Assembly (NCBI RefSeq): GCF_013407145.1
Contig: NZ_CP026993.1
Coordinates: 372,001-436,000 of the forward strand
Length of the DNA stretch: 64,000 nucleotides
Direction: 5' to 3'
Origin: Nitrosopumilus cobalaminigenes
Lineage (GTDB): Archaea; Thermoproteota; Nitrososphaeria; Nitrososphaerales; Nitrosopumilaceae
Below the pieces are notes generated by a model. The model was not told the DNA's origin. It saw only the letters and a list, made by a program, of their open reading frames with translations, and made no database searches. The number at the start of each line of letters is the position of its first letter. The stretch's first letter is position 1. Position numbers and translations under genes: made by a program. Shown in pieces: positions 23,977 to 37,961 of the stretch.

Positions 23977-24018
23977 TTCCTCTCCAAAACAGGGAGGTGT
24001 TTATGAAATAAAAGAAAA

Positions 24019-24213
24019 TTAGATTTTTTCTTTACAATCTTTTTTGTGCTTTCTAAGATCTTCAATCGTATGAAATTCAGTACCACATGCTCTGCATTTC
24101 TCTTTTTTCTTATTATGTGCAATTTCTTTATGTTTTTCCAGCCTATGAGGATACTTGAACCTTGCATCACATTTATCACATTTTAGAGTTCTTCCAAAAT
24201 CGACTGATGACAT
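24019..24213 (-). CDS. two-finger C2H2 zinc-finger protein
   Basis: The 64-residue protein has two classical C2H2 fingers: CDKCDARFKYPHRLEKHKEIAH (written in parts: CDKC at 12-15, His at 28 and 33) and CRACGTEFHTIEDLRKHKKDC (CRAC at 40-43, His 55, Cys 60). The first closely fits the eukaryote-like C-x2-C-x12-H-x4-H spacing. It is basic, so nucleic-acid binding is likely. It starts with ATG and is convergent with the XPF-type nuclease gene. Confidence 0.75.
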   Translation of the reverse strand: MSSVDFGRTLKCDKCDARFKYPHRLEKHKEIAHNKKKEKCRACGTEFHTIEDLRKHKKDCKEKI

Positions 24214-24362
24214 GCTTTGTTTAGAATCCCCATAGTACTAAAACTCATGTCCATATTCATATTCAGATCTGGGGATTTTTTGATCTCTATTCGTTGTATG
24301 AATTGATTTGTGTTTTAATTTACAATCTGAACAGACAACCAGCCCCTAAGGGTTCGTTCTTC

Positions 24363-24387
24363 GGTAAGCTGATTAGCTGACTATACC
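24363..24387 (-). promoter_or_regulatory. candidate operator, copy A of a shared 20-nt motif
   Basis: Read on the minus strand this is TAGTCAGCT-AATC-AGCTTAC. The same 9- and 7-nt flanks with a different 4-nt centre (GAAT) recur at 28345-28368. It contains an inverted core (AGCT...AGCT) and lies upstream of the micro-protein/multicopper oxidase genes. A regulator site is inferred. Confidence 0.4.
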
Positions 24388-24417
24388 TTATCATCACAAG
24401 CATCGTATCTATCTCAT

Positions 24418-24478
24418 GCGAGAACAATATTTCCCTAGACACGAAAGAAATTGTGAGTTTTTTTCACAATGTTCTCGC
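24418..24478. promoter_or_regulatory. nested inverted repeat upstream of the multicopper oxidase genes
   Basis: Outer arms GCGAGAACA (24418-24426) and TGTTCTCGC (24470-24478) are perfectly complementary. Inside them, ATTGTGA (24450-24456) pairs with TCACAAT (24464-24470) around a T-rich loop. The element ends 23 bp before the micro-ORF at 24502, in an otherwise gene-free stretch of 24214-24501. It could be a 5' UTR structure or a terminator of an unseen short RNA. Confidence 0.5.
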
Positions 24479-24501
24479 TTCACACTAACGGAGATAATAT
24501 T

Positions 24502-24612
24502 ATGAAATTATCAATTAAACAAAAACTTGGAATCCCACGTCACAGAAAGGCATTTTATGGATTCTATATCATTGCAGCAGTTTCTATAGTAGTATTATCT
24601 TTGGTACTATAG
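24502..24612 (+). CDS. 36-residue single-TM micro-protein
   Basis: The peptide has a basic N-terminus (MKLSIKQKLGIPRHRKAF) and one hydrophobic helix (about residues 20-36). It ends 12 bp before the multicopper oxidase start, with AGGAG overlapping its stop region, so the two are almost certainly co-transcribed. It may be a small membrane partner of the oxidase. A perfect nested hairpin precedes it. Confidence 0.6.
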   Translation: MKLSIKQKLGIPRHRKAFYGFYIIAAVSIVVLSLVL

Positions 24613-24624
24613 GAGAAAAATAGA

Positions 24625-25959
24625 ATGAAGCAAAACACAACAATGTTTGTAATAGTGGGTGTAATCATTGGATTCAGTATTGCATTTGTAGCATTTATCC
24701 AATCTCCTGAAATTCAAACAACTACTGCAGAATCATCTGAGATTTATCCAAAATTTACAAATCCTAATCCTAAGACATTATCTTATACGTTAATTGCTCA
24801 AGATGCGAAAATTGAAGTATCTCCTGGCGTCCAAGCTAAAGTCTGGACGTACAACGGAACAGTCCCTGCACCAACTTTGAGATTTTCAGAAGGCGATGAC
24901 GTTACTGTAAAATTTGTAAATGAAACTCCATATGCCCACACAATCCATTTTCATGGAACTCATGATTCTACAAATGATGGTGTTTTTCCACAGATAATGC
25001 CTGGTGAGGAATACACGTATCATTTTGTTGCACATGAAGCTGGCATGTTCATGTATCACTGTCATGCGTTTCCAACATCTGAACATGTGAGAATGGGAAT
25101 GTTTGGTGCAATGATTATTGATCCTGCAATACGTCCAATGGAGCCTGCACGGGAATACTTTTTCACTCTAAGTGAGTTTGATCCTAATAATGCATTAGAA
25201 TACTTTACAGAATTTTATCCAGTAAACGGATACGCAAACCAGTATATGGATAACCCAATACAAGTTGTTTCTGGGGAATTAACTAGATTCTATGTAATGG
25301 GAGTTGGTGGCGTATTGCAATCTCCTTTCCATGTGCACAGTACAATAATGAAAGTATATCCTTCAGGAATTTTATGGAATGAACCATACTTTGCACAGAC
25401 ACATCTAATTGGAAATGGTGACACTGCAATTATAGAGGCAACATGGGATACTCCAGGAAAATATCTATTCCATGTTCACGGTATTCAAGAAGAACGTGGC
25501 TCTATGGCAATAATTGAGGTGTTAGAAGATGCATCATCATTATCTGAAATTCAAACTCCTAGTAACAACAAAGGAAGTTATTCCATGATAGAGTGGCAAG
25601 AAGATTTGATAAGAACACTAGAGCAACCAAAACTAATCACATATGATAACTTGGGAGAAGCCAAAGTAATTGATGCACCAAAAATTAAAACAGACAAAGT
25701 AATAATTGTCAAGGATTCATGGAATCCTGACGTTGTAGAATCTTATGATCCTACTGCAATTGAGATTGCTTCAGGTACTACTGTAACTTGGACAAATGAA
25801 GACTTTGTTATACACACTGTTACAGATGATGAAAACACATTTGATTCAGGATTTATTCAAGCAGGAAAAACTTGGTCAAACACATTTGAAAAGTCTGGTG
25901 AATATGGTTATCTCTGTACTTTACATCCTTGGATGAAAGGAACTGTTAGTGTAAACTAG
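24625..25959 (+). CDS. two-domain multicopper oxidase fused to a C-terminal plastocyanin domain
   Basis: The 444-residue exported protein has an N-terminal anchor/signal (about residues 7-25), two cupredoxin domains and a third C-terminal cupredoxin. In domain 1, His105, Cys146, His154 and Met159 form a type-1 copper site. HxH pairs at 108/110, HCH at 145-147, HVH at 235-237 and HVH at 282-284 give all eight His of a trinuclear copper cluster, unlike plain NirK. The C-terminal domain has its own type-1 ligands (His about 396, Cys 430, His 433, Met 436). NirK-like and laccase-like roles in N-oxide chemistry or copper homeostasis are both possible. Confidence 0.85.
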   Translation: MKQNTTMFVIVGVIIGFSIAFVAFIQSPEIQTTTAESSEIYPKFTNPNPKTLSYTLIAQDAKIEVSPGVQAKVWTYNGTVPAPTLRFSEGDDVTVKFVNETPYAHTIHFHGTHDSTNDGVFPQIMPGEEYTYHFVAHEAGMFMYHCHAFPTSEHVRMGMFGAMIIDPAIRPMEPAREYFFTLSEFDPNNALEYFTEFYPVNGYANQYMDNPIQVVSGELTRFYVMGVGGVLQSPFHVHSTIMKVYPSGILWNEPYFAQTHLIGNGDTAIIEATWDTPGKYLFHVHGIQEERGSMAIIEVLEDASSLSEIQTPSNNKGSYSMIEWQEDLIRTLEQPKLITYDNLGEAKVIDAPKIKTDKVIIVKDSWNPDVVESYDPTAIEIASGTTVTWTNEDFVIHTVTDDENTFDSGFIQAGKTWSNTFEKSGEYGYLCTLHPWMKGTVSVN

Positions 25960-26025
25960 ATGAGATATGATTACTAAAAATCAAATTTCATCAAAGGATT
26001 TAAAGTGTAATTTCTTATAATACAC

Positions 26026-27900
26026 ATGAAATTATTTCTGACAATTATTCCTTTGATATTTTTAGGAATTGTGGGTTTACAGGAATCATATGCTGAAGAT
26101 ATGGCAGTGGTAAATTCATCCATAACTCAGCAGGAATTAAAAACCATGGTTGAGAATTGGATGAATAATCCCGATGAGAATGATACAAACCAACGTCTAG
26201 AAATCATGAAAGCATATTATGCATTTAAAGAGACAGGACAGAAACTATCTCACGATAGAGAAGGATTAGTCTTGATGAACCAGATTACAAAAATGGTTAG
26301 TTTTGATATGCCTAGAGAGGAACTTGATGAATTAAGAAGTCAAGTGAGGGTGGAACTTGGATTAGAGACACCTTCTGAAACCAAAATTCTATACATTGAT
26401 TCAAAACTGGTTGACTGTGTTGGAGTTGGTCCACAAAAATGCATGAATGTTCGTGAGAGTATGGATTTCAGTTGGAAAAATTTCTATGATTCCATCAAAG
26501 GATTTGATTATGTTGAGGGAAAATCCTACAAGATTTCTGTAAAAGTAACTGATGTTGAAAACCCTCCTGCTGATTCATCAAGTAAAAAATATGAATTAGT
26601 TGAAATTCTTGATACTAAATCATACTCTAAACATATTCCATACAACAACATTTGTGCACCAGGTTATGTTTCACTTGGTGAAATCTGTGTTCTAAATGAC
26701 AGATGTGGACCTGGAATATATCCTGGAAAAGTCTGTGTTATGGATGGAGTAAAGCAACCCTATCTTAGACCATATCAGCAGGGCAATGCAGGAATTTCAG
26801 CAAACGATGTTATTTGTACAGAAGATAGACAACTACTCTTCAAGTCTGATGCAACACCTGTCTGTGTTAAACCAAGCTCTATGGATAGATTAGAAAAAAT
26901 TGGATGGCATGTTGACATACCACCTATTGCATGTACTTTGGAATATGCTCCTGTTTGTGGTGTTAATGAAAAAACATATGGAAACATGTGTGCATTAACT
27001 GCAGATCATGTTGCAATGAAAAACAAAGGTGAGTGTAAAGCAATTATGCATGACACTTTTGGACTATTTGAAAATACATTACAATATGCTTCTATACCTC
27101 CAATAGTGTCTGAAGAAAAAGGATATGTTGTAACTGAAATTGCAAATGGAGTATTTTGGCTTGTTGGAAGTGGATACCAGACAATGTTTCTAACTACTGG
27201 AGAGGGTGTTGTTGTAATTGATGCACCAAAACCTATTGGTGAAAAATATCTAGAAGCAATTAACGAAGTAACTGATGAACCCATCACTCACATGATTTAC
27301 TCTCATCACCATCAGGATCATACTGGGGCTGCAGGTATGATATTTTCTGAAGATATAACATACATTGCACACAAAGATGCTGCCGATTTGCTTGTATCTG
27401 ATAATGATCCTAACCGTCCTATACCCAATATGGTTCTTGAAGGTGATTTCAATACTCTGGAAATTGGTGATAAAACTATTGAATTACACAACATTGGGGA
27501 CTTTCATTCTAAAGGAAATTGGCTGATTCTTTTACCTCAATATGAAATTGCAATGCTAGTTGATTTGTTTCGTCCTGCTGAATCACCATATCGTGCATTT
27601 GGAGTAACTCCTGACATTGATTTGTATTTGGAAACTCATGATGTCTTGCAAACTTTTGATTTTACGGTTCTTGTATCAGGTCATACTGAATTACTTGCAA
27701 CAAAAAAACATGTAGGTACAAATCAAATGTTTACACAAAGCATAATGGATAATGCTCAGATTGGATTAGATTCTGATGTTGACTCTCTTGAAATATGTGT
27801 CAATACTTCTATCTCTCAATGGGAAGGGAAATTAGGAAATCTTGATGCGTTTATGGTTGATCATTGTAATGCAATGATAGAGTATCTGCAATCCAAATAA
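26026..27900 (+). CDS. secreted multidomain protein: DUF4377-like, Kazal and metallo-beta-lactamase domains
   Basis: The 624-residue protein has a signal peptide (1-23), a helical segment, and a domain at about 120-200 resembling DUF4377 (DCVGVGPQKCMNVRES, NPPADSSSKKYELVE). Next come a Cys-rich region (about 205-282) and a Kazal-type inhibitor domain (about 303-337: CTLEYAPVCGVNEKTYGNMC). A metallo-beta-lactamase domain follows (about 360-560) with HxHxDH at 427-432, His494, Asp513 and His553, so both metal sites look intact. It probably acts outside the membrane as a hydrolase of unknown substrate. It follows the oxidase gene by 66 bp, with its own promoter space. Confidence 0.75.
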   Translation: MKLFLTIIPLIFLGIVGLQESYAEDMAVVNSSITQQELKTMVENWMNNPDENDTNQRLEIMKAYYAFKETGQKLSHDREGLVLMNQITKMVSFDMPREELDELRSQVRVELGLETPSETKILYIDSKLVDCVGVGPQKCMNVRESMDFSWKNFYDSIKGFDYVEGKSYKISVKVTDVENPPADSSSKKYELVEILDTKSYSKHIPYNNICAPGYVSLGEICVLNDRCGPGIYPGKVCVMDGVKQPYLRPYQQGNAGISANDVICTEDRQLLFKSDATPVCVKPSSMDRLEKIGWHVDIPPIACTLEYAPVCGVNEKTYGNMCALTADHVAMKNKGECKAIMHDTFGLFENTLQYASIPPIVSEEKGYVVTEIANGVFWLVGSGYQTMFLTTGEGVVVIDAPKPIGEKYLEAINEVTDEPITHMIYSHHHQDHTGAAGMIFSEDITYIAHKDAADLLVSDNDPNRPIPNMVLEGDFNTLEIGDKTIELHNIGDFHSKGNWLILLPQYEIAMLVDLFRPAESPYRAFGVTPDIDLYLETHDVLQTFDFTVLVSGHTELLATKKHVGTNQMFTQSIMDNAQIGLDSDVDSLEICVNTSISQWEGKLGNLDAFMVDHCNAMIEYLQSK

Positions 27901-27913
27901 TTTCTTTTTAAAA

Positions 27914-28132
27914 TTAAATTCGTGGAAAATCTGCACGTCTTTTAGATTTTGGTTTAGTTCTCAAACGTTTGTGACAACACGGACACCAGACACCTTCATA
28001 GTGAATCCATTGATTACACATCTGGCATAACTTTTGTCCCAACTCATACCGTTTACTTAATCCATATCTTTTCACCTGAAACTCTTGACATTTCCCTATG
28101 CATAATGGATGTGGCCCTGCATTTCTTGACAT
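27914..28132 (-). CDS. 72-residue basic zinc-ribbon protein
   Basis: The peptide has a Cys pair (CIGKC, residues 11-15), then CQMC near 36-39 and CPCC near 50-53, followed by a strongly basic tail (KRLRTKPKSKRRADF). Four to six Cys could bind one or two zinc ions, and the tail suggests contact with nucleic acid. Its ATG overlaps the TAA of the upstream Cys-rich gene (TAATG), so the two are coupled. Confidence 0.65.
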   Translation of the reverse strand: MSRNAGPHPLCIGKCQEFQVKRYGLSKRYELGQKLCQMCNQWIHYEGVWCPCCHKRLRTKPKSKRRADFPRI

Positions 28133-28314
28133 TATGCTACCTCAGAAATTTGTGGCCTGTGATTCATATCTACCAATCTGCATAATGAGTGAATTTGTTC
28201 CTCTGATTCAAAGTGGCATTTTTTACAATCAAACTTGATAGTTTCATTGCAAATTGAACAATTTTGTTTGATTGTTAATTCTATTCCGCATTTTCTGCAA
28301 CTATCAATTCTCAT
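28132..28314 (-). CDS. Cys-rich micro-protein, family A copy 1
   Basis: The 60-residue protein has ligands C6-x2-C9-x9-C19-x2-C22-x7-C30-x2-C33-x8-H42-x2-C45, identical in register to the paralogues at 29950 and 31280. Eight ligands suggest two zinc sites (treble-clef or B-box-like). It is divergent from the one-TM micro-protein at 28421, and the 106-bp gap holds the shared 20-nt motif. Function unknown. Confidence 0.75.
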   Translation of the reverse strand: MRIDSCRKCGIELTIKQNCSICNETIKFDCKKCHFESEEQIHSLCRLVDMNHRPQISEVA

Positions 28315-28344
28315 GATAAAGATACGTCAAAATTGACAATATAC

Positions 28345-28368
28345 CTTAGTCAGCTGAATAGCTTACTT
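28345..28368 (+). promoter_or_regulatory. candidate operator, copy B of the shared 20-nt motif
   Basis: CTTAGTCAGCTGAATAGCTT (continuing AC) lies in the divergent promoter region between the Cys-rich gene at 28132-28314 and the TM micro-protein at 28421. It shares TAGTCAGCT and AGCTTAC with copy A at 24363-24387 in the opposite orientation. A common regulator is inferred. Confidence 0.4.
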
Positions 28369-28420
28369 GTCATTTGTTAGTTTTACCAGATTCTATCTAC
28401 TACTATTCCTAACTATAATC

Positions 28421-28570
28421 ATGAAATCACAACCAATCTCAAACTGGGATAAAATGGTTCATGCCCCTTTCAAAAAGGTCGTAAAATTTGACCTTCTCTG
28501 TATGGGAATCGGTGTAGTAATTGGAGTGGGCATTGGAGCATACTCTGTTGCTAGCGGAATCTTTGGCTAG
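28421..28570 (+). CDS. single-TM micro-protein with FKKVVKFDLLC core, copy 1
   Basis: The 49-residue peptide has a short polar start, the core MVHAPFKKVVKFDLLC (residues 12-27) and a Gly/Val-rich TM helix (about 28-47). The same 16-residue core occurs in the peptide at 31116, while the DNA differs at many third codon positions, which shows selection on the protein. The core is amphipathic and basic and probably lies on the cytoplasmic membrane surface. ATG at 28421 fits the copy-2 start better than in-frame upstream starts. Confidence 0.75.
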   Translation: MKSQPISNWDKMVHAPFKKVVKFDLLCMGIGVVIGVGIGAYSVASGIFG

Positions 28571-28666
28571 CAACAAAACTTCTTTTTTATAATTTTTGAC
28601 ATGACTAAAGGAATTCATTCAAACCATAGAATAAAATCTGTGATCATTTTTATCCTGTATTGAGTA

Positions 28667-29476
28667 GTGTTATCATTGACAGATCTATTTGATGAAACTG
28701 CAAATTATGTACTTGATTTAGCTAGTCCTCAAAGAATGCAAATTTTATTCAAGTTATTAGAAAAAAACTCTACTCCAACTGCACTAGCAAAAGAGATTGA
28801 TGCAACAAAACAAGAAGTACATAGAAATTTCACACGATTGGAAGAAAGCGGTTTAATTGAAAAGAAAACTGATGGAAAATACACGTTAACGACATTTGGA
28901 CAAACTGTATGTACTCAGGTTCCATCCTTGGTTTTTCTTACACAAAATAGGAAATATTTTGAAGAGCATAATTTTGGAGAAATTCCACATAAATTCAAGA
29001 TGCGTTGTGGGCAATTAGCTGCAAGTCAACGTGTAAAAGGATTTTCTAAAACAATGGAGCAGTGGAAGAATATTTACAAAAATTCTGATGAATACATCTA
29101 TGAAATATTATCAGAAGTTCCTTTAGACCTGATAGAGCCCCTGATAAAACAAGTTAAGAAGGGTACAAAATTTGATTATATTTTTTCTGAATCTGCAGTA
29201 GTTCCAAAAGGAAGAAAGGCCCTTCTCAAGAAATTGGGATTTGATAAATTGATGGATGATGGATTAATTCAAAGAAAAATGGCAAAAAATGTTCAAACAG
29301 TACTTGTAATGAATGAGAAAGAGGCATGCATAATGTTTCCAACAGTTGATGGGGAGGCTGATATTAGTGAGATGTTTTATTCAGAGGATCCAATGTTTCA
29401 TGAGTGGTGTCTTGACTATTTCAGATACTGTTGGTATGGCTCTGATGTTTTCAAAGAGAGTAAATTAAAAGAATAA
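28667..29476 (+). CDS. winged-helix transcription regulator, possibly FilR1-type
   Basis: The 269-residue protein has an N-terminal winged helix (about residues 15-85: LASPQRMQILFKLLEKNS, then TALAKEIDATKQEVHRNFTR and a wing ending KYTLTTFG). A longer C-terminal sensor-like domain resembles the FilR1/DUF1724 middle domain found in archaeal regulators. It should bind DNA as a dimer; the ligand is unknown. Start is GTG at 28667 or TTG at 28676. It lies between two micro-protein loci, so it is a candidate regulator of them. Confidence 0.7.
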   Translation: MLSLTDLFDETANYVLDLASPQRMQILFKLLEKNSTPTALAKEIDATKQEVHRNFTRLEESGLIEKKTDGKYTLTTFGQTVCTQVPSLVFLTQNRKYFEEHNFGEIPHKFKMRCGQLAASQRVKGFSKTMEQWKNIYKNSDEYIYEILSEVPLDLIEPLIKQVKKGTKFDYIFSESAVVPKGRKALLKKLGFDKLMDDGLIQRKMAKNVQTVLVMNEKEACIMFPTVDGEADISEMFYSEDPMFHEWCLDYFRYCWYGSDVFKESKLKE

Positions 29477-29623
29477 ACTCAATTTTCTACCTGTTTTCAT
29501 TCATTTTGTCATCAAAATAGTCGATGTGTCTTCATAAAGTGGAACTTGACTAGAACTTCACAGATCCAAACCCTGTTGTATTCGTTTTAATTTTTGCAGA
29601 TTTGAATTTGGTACCTGTGTGGC

Positions 29624-29797
29624 TTAGGCTTCTTTGGGAACATAGTTTTTACATGAACATTTTGTGCATAATATTTTTGATTGCAATTTTCCACTTGGCA
29701 TTGATGTACCTGGTAAGAAATCTCCGCTGCCTATTCTACCTAATGTAAGCTTGTGATCCTCTTTTGTGTGAAGGCAATTCTCACAATCATCATCCAT
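29624..29797 (-). CDS. 57-residue Cys-rich hypothetical protein
   Basis: The peptide has CENC at residues 5-8, His at 10 and 15, and CTKCSC at 44-49, separated by a Gly/Ser-rich middle. This is a plausible zinc-binding mini-protein with widely separated ligand pairs. It occupies the otherwise empty 29477-29949 region; nothing else was seen there. It is divergent from the Cys-rich gene at 29950. Confidence 0.55.
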   Translation of the reverse strand: MDDDCENCLHTKEDHKLTLGRIGSGDFLPGTSMPSGKLQSKILCTKCSCKNYVPKEA

Positions 29798-29949
29798 GAA
29801 TCAATAATGTAAACCTGAGTTATAATTCTGGCTATTCATTAGAACCCTTTATGACTATCTCAAATAGAGAATAATAAAATTAGTATTTCCTAATTAGCTG
29901 ATTCTAATTTTCGATTAGTTTTTAAATTTATTTTACTATACTATATCTC

Positions 29950-30135
29950 ATGGAAAATAAATCCTGCAAAATATGTACTTCTAGATTAGAAGTAGAACAT
30001 AGATGCAAATTCTGTAATGAGCCAACTAGACTCTTTTGTCACACTTGTGGGATAATGGCTGAAAAAATTGCACATCCTGCATGTATGATACTTGATGTTA
30101 ATAGAATGCTAATGCAAACAGAAATGCATCCATAA
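29950..30135 (+). CDS. Cys-rich micro-protein, family A copy 2
   Basis: The 61-residue protein keeps all eight ligand positions of the family (C6, C9, C19, C22, C30, C33, H42, C45) in the same register as 28132 and 31280, although the residues between differ a good deal. It is monocistronic as far as can be seen. The upstream region carries ATTAGCTGA at about 29892, a fragment of the shared motif. An AT-rich TATA-like stretch lies just before the gene. Confidence 0.72.
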   Translation: MENKSCKICTSRLEVEHRCKFCNEPTRLFCHTCGIMAEKIAHPACMILDVNRMLMQTEMHP

Positions 30136-30145
30136 TTTTTTCTTT

Positions 30146-30349
30146 TTACCTTGATTCAATAAAAATGACATCTACAAGATCATTGTTACTTCGTTTGGTA
30201 ACGGTATCTCGATTTGCATTGTGATGATTTTGCAAATGGGCCTTTCTAGTTTTTATTCCATAATTTCTGCATAATCTGCAAAAGTAGGTCACATGTCTCT
30301 GTGATTTTGGTTTTGCCTGATTCTCATATTCTGCAACTAAAGTTTGCAT
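30146..30349 (-). CDS. single C2H2 zinc-finger protein
   Basis: The 67-residue protein has one finger, FCRLCRNYGIKTRKAHLQNH (CRLC at about 24-27, His near 40 and 44-45), in a basic background (NANRDTVTKRSNN). I start at ATG 30349; the frame is open further upstream, but that part overlaps the promoter palindrome. It is divergent from hsp20 and convergent with the gene at 29950. Confidence 0.6.
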   Translation of the reverse strand: MQTLVAEYENQAKPKSQRHVTYFCRLCRNYGIKTRKAHLQNHHNANRDTVTKRSNNDLVDVIFIESR

Positions 30350-30391
30350 GATATGAGAAACATCATTCTGATATTTTAATATTGTCAGTAG

Positions 30392-30409
30392 TATGACATT
30401 ATTGTCATA
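30392..30409. promoter_or_regulatory. perfect palindrome in the hsp20 promoter region
   Basis: TATGACA (30392-30398) and TGTCATA (30403-30409) are exact inverted repeats around TTAT. It lies between the divergent zinc-finger gene and hsp20. A TATA-like CTTTATATTT follows at 30431-30440, so the palindrome sits where an archaeal operator or activator site would be. Confidence 0.5.
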
Positions 30410-30475
30410 TATAGATAATATATGCAAAATCTTTATATTTTGTAATCTCTATTACATTAAATCGGTGATTAAAAG

Positions 30476-30967
30476 ATGTTTGATGACCAATTCGAAAAAA
30501 CATTTCGAAGACTATCGAGCCCCTTTTTTTCAATGGGTGATGTCTTTGATGCTCCACAAGGAGAAATCCAAACACATGGACCATACTATTATGGTTATCA
30601 GATGACCATAGGTCCTGATGGAAAACCCATTGTAAAAGAATGGGGTAATACAAAGCCGCTCTCTGCAATTAGTGATTCTGGCATACGAGATGTGTATGTG
30701 GATGAGACGATTGATGAACAAGATCGTGTCATTAAACTCGTAGCTGAAATGCCTGGTATTGAAAAGTCTGACATCCAGGTTAATGTGGCAGATAATGTTG
30801 TATCAATTTCTGCAGAACACGGAGAAAGAAAGTATGGAACAAAGTTTCCATTAAAGTATGACGTTGATGGAAATTCTGCAAAAGCAAAATACACAAATGG
30901 TGTATTGGAGCTGACATTTTCTCTTGCCGAAAAAAAACCAAAAGGCAGGATTGTGTCAGTAGAATAA
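30476..30967 (+). CDS. hsp20: Hsp20/alpha-crystallin small heat-shock protein
   Basis: The 163-residue protein has an alpha-crystallin domain at about residues 72-163. It includes LVAEMPGIEKSDIQVNVADN, the conserved GVLELTFSL near the end, and a final RIVSVE. The N-terminal 70 residues are aromatic and glycine-rich, as in other small Hsps, and the C-terminal IxI anchor is reduced to IVSV. It is an ATP-independent holdase. It starts an apparent operon with three micro-proteins, with GGAGGT (30969-30974) after its stop. Confidence 0.88.
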   Translation: MFDDQFEKTFRRLSSPFFSMGDVFDAPQGEIQTHGPYYYGYQMTIGPDGKPIVKEWGNTKPLSAISDSGIRDVYVDETIDEQDRVIKLVAEMPGIEKSDIQVNVADNVVSISAEHGERKYGTKFPLKYDVDGNSAKAKYTNGVLELTFSLAEKKPKGRIVSVE

Positions 30968-30982
30968 TGGAGGTACAATGAA

Positions 30983-31105
30983 ATGAAAAATATTTCATCA
31001 ATCCATCAACTCAAAAAGTCTGTCAAATCTTCCATGGAGAAAGTTTCTTCATATCCTGAAGAAGTAATTTCTAAATGGAAGATTGGGAGAAAAAACTTTC
31101 CTTGA
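30983..31105 (+). CDS. 40-residue basic micro-protein in the hsp20 operon
   Basis: The peptide (starting MKNISSIHQLKKSVKSSMEK) is basic and helical, with no Cys. GGAGGT at 30969-30974 gives it a good ribosome-binding site; an ATG six bases earlier stops after two codons. Its stop codon overlaps the GAGGTGA ribosome-binding site of the next gene, which argues for coupling. No homology recognised. Confidence 0.5.
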   Translation: MKNISSIHQLKKSVKSSMEKVSSYPEEVISKWKIGRKNFP

Positions 31106-31115
31106 GGTGATACAT

Positions 31116-31268
31116 ATGGAAAAACAAAATACTTGGAATGCAATGGTACATGCTCCATTTAAGAAGGTAGTAAAATTTGATCTTCTTTGCATTGCAATGG
31201 GAATTCCCATTGGTGCAGGAATTGCAACTGCCTTTCTAACTGGTGACATATACAATCTAATTCCATAG
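31116..31268 (+). CDS. single-TM micro-protein with FKKVVKFDLLC core, copy 2
   Basis: The 50-residue peptide repeats the exact core MVHAPFKKVVKFDLLC (residues 10-25) of the peptide at 28421, followed by a TM helix (about 26-43) that differs in sequence. A strong GAGGTGA lies at 31104-31110. It sits between a basic micro-ORF and a Cys-rich micro-protein in the hsp20 operon. Function unknown; a membrane-surface adaptor is one guess. Confidence 0.75.
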   Translation: MEKQNTWNAMVHAPFKKVVKFDLLCIAMGIPIGAGIATAFLTGDIYNLIP

Positions 31269-31279
31269 GAGGAAAAAAT

Positions 31280-31462
31280 ATGCCAGACACGTTATGTAGA
31301 CGATGTGGAGGGGAGTTGGATGTGGGAAAGCAATGTTTTCATTGCACTCAGCCTATCCAACTAGTTTGTACAAAATGTACAAATCCTACAGAAGTTAGAT
31401 TCCACAGTCAATGCATGTACAGTGAGGAGATCCTATGTCATACAGTAGCTGCTCTTGCATAA
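31280..31462 (+). CDS. Cys-rich micro-protein, family A copy 3
   Basis: The 60-residue protein has the same C6/C9/C19/C22/C30/C33/H42/C45 register as the paralogues at 28132 and 29950, plus an extra Cys near the end (EILCHTV). It follows the TM micro-protein by 11 bp, with AGGAGG before the ATG, and is the last gene of the hsp20 operon, ending near a strong terminator hairpin. Confidence 0.75.
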   Translation: MPDTLCRRCGGELDVGKQCFHCTQPIQLVCTKCTNPTEVRFHSQCMYSEEILCHTVAALA

Positions 31463-31484
31463 GTCATAGAACACCTGATTCAAC

Positions 31485-31523
31485 CATGTGGGGGATCCCT
31501 TCTCCCTCACATGTGACCATTTT
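31485..31523 (+). terminator. strong GC-rich hairpin followed by a T-run
   Basis: CATGTGGGGGA (31485-31495) pairs with TCCCTCACATG (31503-31513), with one G-T wobble and a short loop, and TTTTT follows at about 31519-31523. In this AT-rich DNA the stem stands out. It closes the hsp20 operon and faces the convergent Nob1 gene. Confidence 0.65.
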
Positions 31524-31560
31524 TGAAATCATGTTAAGAAAATAAAATTTAAAGATATTT

Positions 31561-32040
31561 TCAATCTTTAAGCAATTTTCTTTTCAATGGAGTGCCACAA
31601 GCTGGGCATTCAGTCCCACTAGAGTGATTCGTTCTACACCCTGGACAATAATGCACCCATTTTCCAACATCTGTAATCCCTTTAGTCATAATTGGCGAAA
31701 TTTTCAATTCTAAATTTTTGGCTACGTTTGAAATGGCAAAATCATCAGTAATTATCTCACCCTTTGTTTCAATGCATAGTGCAATAACTGACATGTCTTG
31801 TTTTGAGAGTTGTGGAAAATCTCCAGTATCTTTAGCTGCTTTAATTGCACTTTTTGTTGATTCCTCGCTAGGCTCTCGAATTTTTAGTCTGTTAGTTTCA
31901 AGCAAAGTTCCTAATGCATCATGATTTTTCTTTATGTGTTTTATTTCATCATATACGGATGATGTTGTGTAACAGTCCTCTGATGATCGAAATGGGACTC
32001 CTGCATAAAAGGCACTGGCATCTAAAATTCTAAAATCCAA
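31561..32040 (-). CDS. nob1: rRNA maturation endonuclease Nob1
   Basis: The 159-residue protein has a PIN domain (ILDASAFYAG near the start with a catalytic Asp; KQDMSVIALCIE and EIITDDFAISNVA supply further acidic residues). A C-terminal zinc ribbon with CPGC and CPAC follows. Nob1 makes the final 3' cut of small-subunit rRNA. The proposed TTG start at 32040 overlaps the end of the NAD kinase gene by 11 bp, suggesting coupled translation. Confidence 0.88.
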   Translation of the reverse strand: MDFRILDASAFYAGVPFRSSEDCYTTSSVYDEIKHIKKNHDALGTLLETNRLKIREPSEESTKSAIKAAKDTGDFPQLSKQDMSVIALCIETKGEIITDDFAISNVAKNLELKISPIMTKGITDVGKWVHYCPGCRTNHSSGTECPACGTPLKRKLLKD

Positions 32041-35131: not shown

Positions 35132-37213
35132 ATGGCAATAAACCCCTTTACTTCATTAGTATTTGATCTGTTCATAATTTCTGCAATTATCATTACTGCG
35201 TACACTGTAAATTTCTACTACCTTGCATTCCTTTCTAGAAAAAGAAAAAATGTTCATACTACTAAAGACTGGGGTACTCCCTCAGTTACAATACAACTGC
35301 CAATATACAACGAAAAGTATGTTGCAAAAAGGCTAGTAGACGCTGTTTGTAATTTAGATTATCCAAAAGACCAGATGAGAATAATGGTTTGTGATGATTC
35401 TGATGATGATACAGTTGAATTGATGCATGATGTAGTTGATGGTTATCAAAAACAAGGTTTTCAAATTGAACATGTGAGGCGTGGAACTAGAAAAGGGTAC
35501 AAAGCTGGTGCTTTGAAGCATGCAATGAAAACAACTGATACTGATCTTGTTGCAATTTTTGATGCTGATTTTATTCCTCCAAAACAATTTCTTAAAGAAG
35601 CAATTCCGCACTTTTCAAAATCTAATATTGGTCTAGTTCAATGTCGTTGGGGACATGTTAATGAAGACTATTCTACAATTACTCAAGTCCAAGCACTTAG
35701 TCTTGATTTTCATTTTCTTGTAGAGCAAAAAGCAAAAAGCAATTCTCATCTTTTTATGAATTTCAATGGAACTGCAGGAATTTGGAGACGTGAGTGTATT
35801 GAGAATGCTGGTGGTTGGCATACTGCCACTCTTGTTGAAGATCTTGATTTGAGTTACCGCGCACAAATGAAAGGATGGAAATGTGTATTTTTGCCTGATA
35901 TTGTAGTTGATGCAGAACTACCTGCACAAATGAACGGAGCTAAAAGACAACAATTTCGTTGGGCAAAAGGCTCTATTCAATGTGCTGTAAAATTACTTTC
36001 TGATGTAGTTATGAAAAGAAAAGTTGCAATTGAAGCAAAAATTCAGGCTTTCATTCAACTTACACGTCACATTGTATATCCGTTAATGCTTATACAATTT
36101 TTAGCATTACCTGTTTTGTTAGCTGGCCAAATCAATCTTTATGTGGTAAGTTTTCTTCCTGCACTAACTATTGCTACGTATCTTGCAATGGGACCTGGTG
36201 CATATATTATCATTATACAAGGCATGTATGGTAAATCTTGGAAATCAAAAGCAAAACTACTTCCTGCATTACTAGTTTACAATGCAGGAATGTCTGTAAA
36301 CAACACTGTTGCAGTTTTTGATGCTGTACTTGGAAAGAAAAATGAATTTCTTCGAACTCCAAAATATGGAATCATAACAAAAGATGATGATTGGAGAGAC
36401 AAGGCATACAATTTGCCATTTACTCAAACTACTCTTTTGGAAATATTTTTTGGCGTTTATGGTATAATGGGAGTATTCATTTCAATATTCTCAAATAATC
36501 CTGTGTTTGTACCGATTATTCTACTACAAACTGTGGGATTTTTCTACATCGCTTACATGAGTTTGTCGCATACTCGATTTAAAAAAAATAAATCTGTCAA
36601 TGACAAACCACTTACAAAAAAGGAAAAAACTGCAAAGAATATCTATCGACTTGCAATGACTGGGATAATTGGAATAATTATTTTTGGCGGCTATATGGTA
36701 GTTTCTGGTTACAATACTGACATTTACCCTCTAGATAGAATTCGTGGAAACCTTGATGGTGTTATGGCCTCATCTGATCCGGAAATGATTCGTAATCACT
36801 TGGTGGCAATTCAAACTGATTTGGATTTAGTGATGGCAAATTTACCTGAAACCACAGATGAAAGTGGTAATATTTGGAAAAACCCTGTTTGGATATTTGG
36901 TACTGAATCTACCAACTTTGTTCGTATTCAAAATAACATAGACATGATGTTTATCAGCGTAAATGAAATTTCGTCTATTCCAAAAGATAATCCTGCATTC
37001 CATACTGGAATGATGGATGTTCATGATAGAGCATCATTATTACAAATCAACATAATGGATGTAACTCCGCATATGTATGTCAGTCCTGAAAATATGATGC
37101 TAAGTGCTATTTGGATTGCAGCAATAATTGGAATCTTTGCTATGCTAAAAAGAAAGAAAGAACAACTCAAAAAAGTTGATTTGACAAATGAGATTCCTTT
37201 AGAAACTAACTAG
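35132..37213 (+). CDS. membrane-bound GT2 family glycosyltransferase with extra C-terminal domain
   Basis: The 693-residue protein has an N-terminal TM helix, a cytosolic GT2 domain (IFDADFIPPKQF with the metal-binding DxD; LVEDLDLSYR; the QQFRW motif of processive synthases), several TM helices (about 300-480), and a C-terminal part at about 500-690. That last part has two TM helices around an extracytoplasmic segment. It should make or extend a polysaccharide, like cellulose synthase or mannan synthase family members. The C-terminal domain is duplicated in the following gene. Confidence 0.85.
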   Translation: MAINPFTSLVFDLFIISAIIITAYTVNFYYLAFLSRKRKNVHTTKDWGTPSVTIQLPIYNEKYVAKRLVDAVCNLDYPKDQMRIMVCDDSDDDTVELMHDVVDGYQKQGFQIEHVRRGTRKGYKAGALKHAMKTTDTDLVAIFDADFIPPKQFLKEAIPHFSKSNIGLVQCRWGHVNEDYSTITQVQALSLDFHFLVEQKAKSNSHLFMNFNGTAGIWRRECIENAGGWHTATLVEDLDLSYRAQMKGWKCVFLPDIVVDAELPAQMNGAKRQQFRWAKGSIQCAVKLLSDVVMKRKVAIEAKIQAFIQLTRHIVYPLMLIQFLALPVLLAGQINLYVVSFLPALTIATYLAMGPGAYIIIIQGMYGKSWKSKAKLLPALLVYNAGMSVNNTVAVFDAVLGKKNEFLRTPKYGIITKDDDWRDKAYNLPFTQTTLLEIFFGVYGIMGVFISIFSNNPVFVPIILLQTVGFFYIAYMSLSHTRFKKNKSVNDKPLTKKEKTAKNIYRLAMTGIIGIIIFGGYMVVSGYNTDIYPLDRIRGNLDGVMASSDPEMIRNHLVAIQTDLDLVMANLPETTDESGNIWKNPVWIFGTESTNFVRIQNNIDMMFISVNEISSIPKDNPAFHTGMMDVHDRASLLQINIMDVTPHMYVSPENMMLSAIWIAAIIGIFAMLKRKKEQLKKVDLTNEIPLETN
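36633..37172 (+). repeat. 540-bp duplication, copy 1 (C-terminal part of the GT2 gene)
   Basis: This segment aligns without gaps, at a constant 766-bp offset, to 37399-37938. Most differences are single bases and many are synonymous. It begins at the domain's first TM helix and ends in a KRKKEQL stretch. Copy 2 is in the next gene. Confidence 0.85.
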
Positions 37214-37268: not shown

Positions 37269-37961
37269 ATGCCTGAATTTGGTACAATTGCAATGGTGGT
37301 ATTGGCTGTTGCAATAATTGGTGTTGTAGCAGTAACTGCAAGATCAAGATTATCTTCAAATAATGTAAATGCAGGTGTTGGTGATAAAACAACAATGTCT
37401 GATAATATCTACAAGTTAGCCATGGTGGGAATTCTTGGAATAATTATTTTTGGCGGTTACATGGCAATTTCTGGTTACAATGCTGACATTTACCCTCTAG
37501 ATAGAATTCGTGGAAACCTTGATGGAATTGTATCTTCTTCTGATCCTGTAATAATTCGTGAACATTTGGTAGCAATCCAAACTGATTTGGATTTAGTGAT
37601 GGCAAATCTGCCTGAAACAACAGATGAAAGTGGCAATGTTTGGAAAAACCCTGTTTGGATATTTGGTACTGAATCTACCAACTTCATTCGAATTCAAAAT
37701 AACATCGATACAATGTTTGCAGGTATAGATGAAATATCTTCACTCTCAAAAGATAATTCAGCATATCATACAGGAATGTTGGATATCAACGATAGGGCAT
37801 TGTTATTGAAAATCAACATAATGGATGCAACCCCCTACATGTATGTTAGTCCTGAAAACATGATGTTAAGTGCTATTTGGATTGCCGTAATTATTGGAAT
37901 CTTTGCTGTCTTGAAAAGAAAGAAAGAACAATTACAAAAAGAAGATGAAATAGGAATCTAA
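37269..37961 (+). CDS. stand-alone paralogue of the GT2 C-terminal domain
   Basis: The 230-residue protein has an N-terminal TM helix and then a copy of residues about 500-685 of the preceding glycosyltransferase. The shared stretch includes ETTDESGNVWKNPVWIFGTE and RIQNNIDTMF. The domain faces outside between two TM helices. The gene lies 55 bp after the GT2 gene and is probably co-transcribed. It may act as a partner or regulator of the synthase. It overlaps the convergent coiled-coil gene by 4 bp. Confidence 0.8.
   Translation: MPEFGTIAMVVLAVAIIGVVAVTARSRLSSNNVNAGVGDKTTMSDNIYKLAMVGILGIIIFGGYMAISGYNADIYPLDRIRGNLDGIVSSSDPVIIREHLVAIQTDLDLVMANLPETTDESGNVWKNPVWIFGTESTNFIRIQNNIDTMFAGIDEISSLSKDNSAYHTGMLDINDRALLLKINIMDATPYMYVSPENMMLSAIWIAVIIGIFAVLKRKKEQLQKEDEIGI
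37399..37938 (+). repeat. 540-bp duplication, copy 2
   Basis: Second copy of the segment at 36633-37172, in the same orientation and frame. Aligned anchors such as GGAATAATTA and AGAAAGAAAG are offset by exactly 766 bp, so no indels separate them. Confidence 0.85.

Follow-up and report, generated by a model that had tools for sequence, protein, structure and literature searches.

Two families of micro-proteins of Nitrosopumilus cobalaminigenes, one with a single transmembrane (TM) helix and one rich in cysteine, are united by a shared palindromic operator, which also stands before a multicopper oxidase (MCO) operon and a structured leader RNA. Members of both families are encoded side by side in the window, the whole 64,000-nucleotide (nt) stretch of DNA that was analyzed here (G000:C1:372001-436000), which belongs to a single-contig genome of 1.56 Mb. 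We consider it very likely that the operator marks a common regulon, and a winged-helix protein encoded next to the pair, P0007, is its probable reader. A preliminary description of this DNA had noticed the two peptide families and proposed a membrane-associated metal or redox module linked to stress; the operator, the leader RNA, the link to the regulator, and the operon at 24.4 to 27.9 kb go beyond it.

The TM profile, the Cys profile, the operator, P0007, and a model of the leader RNA were surveyed in 250 Nitrosopumilaceae genomes, with family-level cut-offs of E ≤ 0.1 for the TM profile and E ≤ 0.01 for the Cys profile. The relatives that were matched in the named collection carry mostly Nitrosopumilus or Nitrosarchaeum labels. 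These genomes share ancestry and are not independent, which applies to all co-occurrence counts given below. Labels such as G145, L103, c2, and g1 are our own handles for genomes, loci, protein clusters, and genera, respectively.

A palindromic operator shared by the micro-protein genes

The operator consensus, GTMAGCT-N4-AGCTKAC, was derived by aligning the regions upstream of TM genes. In the whole genome, two sites have no more than one mismatch, and both lie in the window (0 for the reversed pattern used as a control): an exact one between the divergent Cys and TM genes at 28.3 kb, 34 nt from the Cys ATG and 54 nt from the TM ATG, and a second one before the MCO operon. When up to three mismatches were allowed, 72 sites per strand were found, compared to 120 for the reversed control; since the control exceeds the real count, weaker sites are uninformative alone, and the own-genome analysis uses the two near-exact sites only.

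Across the family, the exact operator occurs at 74 places in 38 of the 250 genomes (reversed-pattern control, 1/250), and all 38 of these genomes also contain a TM match. A TM gene starts within 100 nt of the operator at 56 of the 74 sites and a leader RNA faces 32 of them, with only 5 sites having neither (per-place TM and Cys counts are among the matches listed). The distance between operator edge and TM start falls into two classes, 34 or 54/55 nt, which are two helical turns apart. Ten distinct divergent promoters (the window, L103, L105, L114, L134, L135, L157, L264, L268, and L270) have a single operator, with the Cys start at 34 or 35 nt and the TM start at 54 or 55 nt. Cys genes that have no TM gene across the operator can likewise have the site 54 nt upstream (L171, L254, and L257), a connection between the two families that extends past the divergent pairs. 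The genera g35, g36, and g38 have a repeat of the half-site, AGCTKA-N12-16-AGCTKA, in 13 of 15 TM upstream regions (background, 40 of 20,000 windows drawn at random from these loci).

The two gene families are also recurrent neighbors, mostly in divergent orientation, beyond chance. The adjacency that the preliminary description had pointed out in two places is present in the window as a divergent pair at 28.3 kb and a tandem pair at 31.1 to 31.5 kb with a stop-to-start gap of 11 nt, and its suggested check in other genomes showed that the linked pair recurs, with a Cys gene within 1 kb of 31 of the 84 TM genes in the fetched TM-centered regions (25 divergent, 5 tandem behind the TM gene, and 1 tandem before it; 53 without a Cys gene). 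Some of these regions had been chosen because both families were near each other; in the subset of 60 regions selected by TM match alone (64 TM genes), a Cys gene lies within 1 kb in 24 regions (24/64 TM genes), compared to a chance expectation of about 0.6% (about 5 Cys genes per 1.56 Mb). Neighboring protein clusters were counted over 81 loci. The recurrent ones were the winged-helix regulator (29 loci); a nitroreductase (c2), a small membrane protein (c3), and a UspA-like protein (named by eye), each in 14; an MCO (13); and Hsp20 (11). Hsp20 and copper genes, which had been proposed as neighbors to look for, thus do recur nearby, as does the UspA-like protein. The c3 protein (L139, L253, and L256) has about 130 amino acids (aa) and a lysine-rich last helix, lies beside TM genes and operators, and matches no Pfam family.

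Titles and opening lines of abstracts in the open-licence literature yielded no description of the operator, the leader RNA, or either micro-protein family, which is not proof of their absence from it.

Two constrained micro-protein families

Both families are real beyond reasonable doubt, and both are under purifying selection. The two TM peptides of the window have in common a 16-residue core, MVHAPFKKVVKFDLLC, that is indeed identical in both, and the corresponding DNA differs at 9 of 48 bases, all nine at third codon positions, where most of the differences had been noticed, with no residue change. The ratio of nonsynonymous to synonymous differences, a check proposed for the core, is far below 1 (pooled pN/pS, 0.046 for the core and 0.216 for the whole gene; 12 TM genes of 49 aa). 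The helices behind the core had been called different; their sequences do differ, but they are not unrelated, since they align and G31, G35, and G37 (numbering of the peptide at 28421) are invariant in an alignment of 32 sequences.

The window holds the only two TM matches of its genome. The TM profile matched 106 of the 250 genomes, six of them weakly (E = 0.04 to 0.1; G144, G171, G109, G117, G134, and G244), and these six are counted although they may be chance matches; genus g34 has two weak matches only, with an E value of about 0.05. An order-wide draw of 350 genomes, searched with a diverse TM profile at E ≤ 0.001, gave 81 matching genomes, of which 80 are Nitrosopumilaceae and 1 (G368, family f8) is a fragmented genome whose match lies perhaps on a stray contig. 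A comparable lone match is L249, labeled Nitrosocosmicus. Judged from these profile matches, the TM family appears to be essentially restricted to Nitrosopumilaceae. A wide archaeal spread was considered and found no support in the whole-genome searches, which were limited to this order. The family has no Pfam, NCBIfam, or PADLOC match at cut-off.

Its charged, constrained core and short, glycine-patterned helix could be those of an accessory subunit of a membrane complex, a role that we consider possible but doubtful. CydX, AcrZ, KdpF, and MgtS, which regulate bacterial membrane complexes as small single-pass subunits, have 30 to 50 aa and one helix. The TM peptide is similar to them in overall form (size, single helix, and short conserved juxtamembrane segment). 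Judged by eye, another TM subfamily (L113, L140, L146, L160, L163, and L169) has upstream both a ribosome-binding site and a different palindrome, AGTTGATTT...AAATCAACT.

The three Cys-rich proteins had been reported to carry eight ligands in identical register, and C6, C9, C19, C22, C30, C33, H42, and C45 are invariant in all 14 aligned members; of a wider set of 28, 3 lack C45. Five convincing Cys matches occur in the genome, three of them inside the window; a sixth candidate (E = 0.36) contains a stop and was dropped. The Cys profile matched 190 of the 250 genomes, and the pooled pN/pS is 0.350 (11 genes). No Pfam, NCBIfam, or PADLOC family matched at cut-off, the best score among the double zinc ribbon, B-box, and RING families of Pfam being 16.7 bits (cut-off, 27). 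Solved structures gave weak zinc-ribbon matches only (best, YfgJ, with an E value of 0.007). The structure model (predicted local distance difference test [pLDDT] score, 77.7; predicted template modeling [pTM] score, 0.51) is a small hairpin plus helix resembling a zinc ribbon, and two fold comparisons of this model returned weak matches and no confident relative (Foldseek, best E value of 0.56; second comparison, best Z score of 3.5 for ZifS 8yoz, with a root mean square deviation of 3.9 over 54 residues).

In being archaeal, shorter than 70 aa, present in many copies per genome, and equipped with several CxxC pairs, these proteins are like the zinc-finger micro-proteins of Haloferax volcanii (PMC11241148 and PMC10716476), for which the available part of PMC11241148 mentions neither an operator nor a TM partner. 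P0002, P0003, and P0004 (60, 61, and 60 aa) are below the 70-aa limit of the C(P)XCG zinc-finger class but hold one CxxCG each, their other pairs being CxxC without the G. At 31435 to 31545, a 36-aa open reading frame (ORF) overlaps the end of a Cys gene out of frame; its relatives at the Cys loci L040 and L147 are longer. A small Cys/His protein, P0008 (30146 to 30349; cluster c11, 6/81 loci), adjoins the Hsp20 gene on the opposite strand.

A winged-helix protein as candidate reader of the operator

P0007 scored 53.5 bits with PF25213 (HVO_A0261_N; cut-off, 35), and the FilR1 middle domain, PF08350, stayed below cut-off (15.6 versus 27 bits). Orthologs that are at least 70% identical occur in 43 of the 250 genomes; every one of the 38 operator genomes is among them, G017 with a partial gene. 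Five genomes (G071, G072, G099, G265, and G266) have P0007 without the exact operator, and 207 have neither. Within genus g1, a close P0007 is present in 25/25 operator genomes and 0/70 operator-free genomes. On this pattern, P0007 is probably the protein that reads the operator.

Among the 38 close P0007 sequences, C79, H98, C218, and H242 are invariant, and C245, C252, and C111 are present in 37, 36, and 33, respectively; in 8 more distant relatives, C111 is found in 0 and C252 in 2. The conserved Cys and His residues suggest that P0007 may sense thiols or metals. Its structure model is good for the DNA-binding half, and the C-terminal part is of low confidence (mean pLDDT, 51.4); a search of solved structures returned nothing at E ≤ 0.01. 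P0007 differs from regulators of the HVO_A0261/FilR1 type in its conserved Cys/His set, and the operator did not turn up in the titles and abstract starts that were searched. An assignment as a defense protein was rejected, as weak PADLOC matches (best, Csa3, with an E value of 4e-7) span the winged-helix part alone.

A structured leader RNA on the other face of the operator

Many operators have on their other face, 34 nt away, a leader of about 63 nt that begins with AUGCGAGAAC. Most copies consist of an outer helix and two hairpins, a small one (P2) whose loop, CCCUAGAC, is near-invariant and another with a U-rich loop; a few single-sequence folds deviate from this common shape. The copy in the window scores 87.3 bits with a covariance model and has a folding z score of -4.17, its P2 hairpin being present in the best structure and absent from the centroid. 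The inner helices were taken from single-sequence folds and then counted. In an alignment not fitted to the model (A7), 87.3% of cells pair, with 6 pairs and 26 doubly changed cells, compared to at most 6 pairs and 12 doubly changed cells in a control with slid partners; the number of pair types in A7 is not above that of shuffled alignments (425 of 500 shuffles were equally high). In the model-fitted alignment (A8), 91.0% of cells pair, with 8 pairs and 34 doubly changed cells (slid-partner control, at most 5 and 11). The share of paired cells is only 79% for P2, and RNAalifold on a MAFFT alignment recovered the outer helix only.

The covariance model found 36 leader copies in 25 of the 250 genomes, its filters losing some weak matches. 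For 33 of them, the distance between an exact operator and the leader start is 29 to 35 nt; one leader of G027 is a tandem copy 255 nt from the operator, and those of G074 and G072 start at a distance of precisely 34 nt from imperfect sites, which have two and three mismatches, respectively. Since the 28 copies of the training set were operator linked, the informative points are that no matches lie away from such sites and that five distinct matches outside the training set all lie 29 to 35 nt from an operator that is exact or has two to three mismatches. In L290 (G027:C9), two identical leader copies are 221 nt apart; the L015 version has runs of N, and the arrangement may be an assembly artefact.

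Behind the leaders that were inspected lie MCO genes, Cys genes, genes of a second TM micro-protein family (PRHKKAFYGFY...), or c3. A reading as a peptide (ATG, MREQ...) was rejected because length changes are not multiples of three and the frame of the 3' half varies while pairing is kept; the leader was therefore taken as RNA, and we hold a structured leader RNA to be likely, with considerable confidence. A search of positions 24000 to 32000 of the window against Rfam gave no match at the leader, and its two matches with E ≤ 1 are microRNA models elsewhere, far below the gathering threshold.

The multicopper oxidase operon and the possible trigger

The MCO behind the second operator has the MCO4a domain set (PF07732, PF07731, and PF00127, all above cut-off) and shares 82.7% identity over 439 residues with the G145 MCO. 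In the relative G145, a first copy of P0007 starts 84 nt from an operator. A second copy lies behind MCO and hemerythrin genes that have the same orientation, and this MCO gene starts 241 nt from an operator. This is the gene order of the MCO4a-hemerythrin cluster of Nitrosopumilus maritimus (Nmar_1353-1354), here behind an operator; the available part of PMC12448741 mentions no operator, leader RNA, or micro-proteins at that cluster. According to the same source, MCO4a (Nmar_1354) makes HNO from NH2OH, Nmar_1354 and the neighboring hemerythrin Nmar_1353 are raised in biofilm, and a nitroreductase family increases in each of the three strains studied (PMC12448741). In other genomes, TM genes have the nitroreductase (cluster c2) behind them. 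Genes of a second single-pass micro-protein family, PRHRKAFYGFYIIAAVSIVVLSLVL, lie upstream of MCO genes and, at L080 and L089, immediately upstream of Cys genes.

Proposed regulon and alternative explanations

We propose that the 28.3-kb pair belongs to a small Nitrosopumilaceae regulon in which P0007 acts on the palindrome in response to nitrosative or hydroxylamine stress and the TM peptide serves as an accessory subunit, a composite reading to which we give about an even chance. P0007 would bind GTMAGCT-N4-AGCTKAC, which at 34 nt from the start adjoins the core promoter and at 54 nt lies two helical turns farther upstream, and would switch, by activation or repression, the micro-protein genes, which are predicted to be leaderless and to be transcribed from their start codons. 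From the other face, it would control leader RNA transcripts encoding Cys-rich proteins, the second TM micro-protein, or an MCO4a-type oxidase. The stress would be sensed through the conserved Cys and His residues of P0007. The TM peptide would be an N-in, single-pass subunit whose basic, aromatic juxtamembrane segment (W..MVHAPFKKVVKFDLLC) would dock on a partner at the inner membrane face, with the glycine-patterned helix packing against the partner's helices, and the Cys-rich protein might be a cytosolic, metal-bound partner or an RNA or protein adaptor. That the leader adds a second layer, sensing a ligand or protein like a riboswitch and, with the winged-helix switch, controlling the micro-proteins and MCO4a so that the cells cope with the hydroxylamine or nitric oxide (NO) that their own energy metabolism makes, is a speculative and rather unlikely extension. 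Computation establishes the two families, their purifying selection, the operator and its spacing, the co-occurrence with P0007, and the covariation of the leader RNA; binding by P0007, the sense of the switch, the transcription start sites, the trigger, the membrane topology, and what either micro-protein does are inferred. On this proposal, two micro-protein families unmatched in Pfam and NCBIfam gain a concrete setting, with a predicted regulator, an operator, a promoter geometry, a leader RNA, and a target list, and MCO4a, whose part in hydroxylamine chemistry is debated, is put under a named candidate switch.

Several points weigh against this proposal. The exact operator is absent from 68 of the 106 TM genomes, so that TM genes outlive it. 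The 70% identity line for P0007 was chosen after the list had been viewed, and one of the 38 orthologs is partial (G017); because the line is post hoc and the genomes share ancestry, the Fisher-test significance of the co-occurrence is overstated. H98 is also kept in 8/8 of the more distant P0007 relatives, and the low confidence of the C-terminal model means that no sensor site can be named. In the window, the MCO operon carries a metallo-beta-lactamase instead of hemerythrin, and no nitroreductase follows the TM gene. The NH2OH link is a single cited result, given second-hand (PMC12448741), and copper-limited Nitrososphaera viennensis raises both MCO4a and MCO4b strongly, as far as the available part of PMC7785015 goes.

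As the trigger, hydroxylamine or nitrosative stress falls a little short of an even chance and is our first choice, with copper second. Were the regulon one of copper homeostasis, which we regard as unlikely, the Cys and His residues of P0007 would sense copper, the MCO would oxidize Cu(I), and the TM and Cys proteins would handle copper at the membrane. The MCO is a repeated target of the operator, the four residues common to all 38 close P0007 sequences (and C245, common to 37) would suit such a sensor, and the response of MCO4a and MCO4b in copper-limited N. viennensis fits as well (PMC7785015). In copper-limited N. maritimus, however, the only MCO reported up in the available text is MCO1, not MCO4a (PMC12448741), and no copper transport gene was recognized among the neighbor clusters that were scanned, most neighbors being unscanned. 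The copper-responsive genes of N. viennensis are themselves a stress set of an ammonia-oxidizing archaeon with MCO4 genes and a shared upstream motif; they come from another family (PMC7785015).

The second TM/Cys copy suggests another explanation. At 31.1 to 31.5 kb, both micro-proteins look like they were recruited into a heat shock-type Hsp20 operon with another promoter: its first gene is hsp20, and in the whole genome no operator with at most one mismatch precedes it. The 40-aa ORF between hsp20 and the TM gene has a conserved C terminus, KW[KR].GR[KR]NFP, in 9 distinct sequences among the matches listed. The TM peptide could be a membrane chaperone-like or Hsp20-anchoring factor in envelope or protein homeostasis stress, linked to Hsp20 and UspA-like genes, clusters that recur in 11/81 and 14/81 loci (the latter named by eye). 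We think this improbable, to about the same degree as the copper explanation; the missing near-exact operator argues against it, as do L156 and L160, in which a Cys gene follows Hsp20 with no TM gene between them.

The module of the preliminary description, read as a membrane metal or redox machine built from TM and Cys proteins that bind to one another, is less probable still. What stands is that the genes are linked (25 divergent and 6 tandem neighbors among 84 TM genes), have an operator in common, and lie near stress and copper genes; what does not stand is a simple two-part machine, which is unsupported because no Cys gene lies within 1 kb of 53 of the 84 TM genes and because Cys matches are found in 190/250 genomes, compared to 106/250 for TM matches. 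A metal or redox role is possible, although the behavior of MCO4a in the available part of PMC12448741 points rather to hydroxylamine or nitrosative stress. A toxin-antitoxin-like pair, in which the Cys-rich protein or the leader RNA would restrain a toxic hydrophobic peptide, would agree with a small hydrophobic peptide, a divergent partner, and a common promoter region, but is very improbable given the 53 TM genes that lack the partner, a PADLOC search in which no TM, Cys, or P0005 micro-protein had a match at E ≤ 0.01, and a constraint on the charged core that goes beyond hydrophobicity.

Other features of the window

Positions of the features are collected in Table 1. P0005, whose gene is cluster c6, is present in 12 of the 81 loci, and no protein family reached cut-off with it in a profile scan.

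Table 1. Operators, leader RNA, micro-protein genes, and neighboring genes in the window
Feature	Position	Strand	Remarks
Second near-exact operator GTAAGCTGATTAGCTGAC	24364..24381	.	Before multicopper oxidase operon
Structured 5' leader RNA	24416..24478	+	Three-way junction, conserved P2 loop CCCUAGAC; 34 nt from operator
Second TM micro-protein P0011	24502..24612	+	36 aa; PRHRKAFYGFY... family; no Pfam match
Multicopper oxidase, MCO4a-type	24625..25959	+	C-terminal cupredoxin domain; PF07732 90.0 bits (cut-off, 21)
DUF4377 - Kazal - metallo-beta-lactamase protein	26026..27900	+	Downstream of MCO
Small Cys-containing protein P0005	27914..28132	-	72 aa; touches end of P0002; cluster c6
Cys-rich micro-protein P0002	28132..28314	-	60 aa; four ligand pairs; divergent from TM gene
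Palindromic operator GTCAGCTGAATAGCTTAC	28349..28366	.	Between divergent Cys and TM genes; 0 mismatches
TM micro-protein P0010	28421..28570	+	49 aa; operator-driven copy; predicted leaderless
Winged-helix regulator P0007	28667..29476	+	Candidate operator reader; translated from TTG at 28676
Cys-rich micro-protein P0003	29950..30135	+	61 aa; stand-alone; no near-exact operator
Hsp20	30476..30967	+	NF041800 160.3 bits (cut-off, 140); first gene of second TM/Cys operon
Conserved 40-aa ORF	30983..31105	+	Between hsp20 and TM gene
TM micro-protein P0001	31116..31268	+	50 aa; copy in Hsp20 operon
Cys-rich micro-protein P0004	31280..31462	+	60 aa; 11 nt behind TM gene P0001

The protein at 26026 to 27900 unites DUF4377, Kazal, and metallo-beta-lactamase domains, which is an unusual combination. 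Outside the regions discussed, a glycosyltransferase-like gene (35132 to 37213) and the gene at 37269 to 37961 encode a nearly identical C-terminal part, YPLDRIRGNLDG..., which is perhaps the result of a recent partial duplication.

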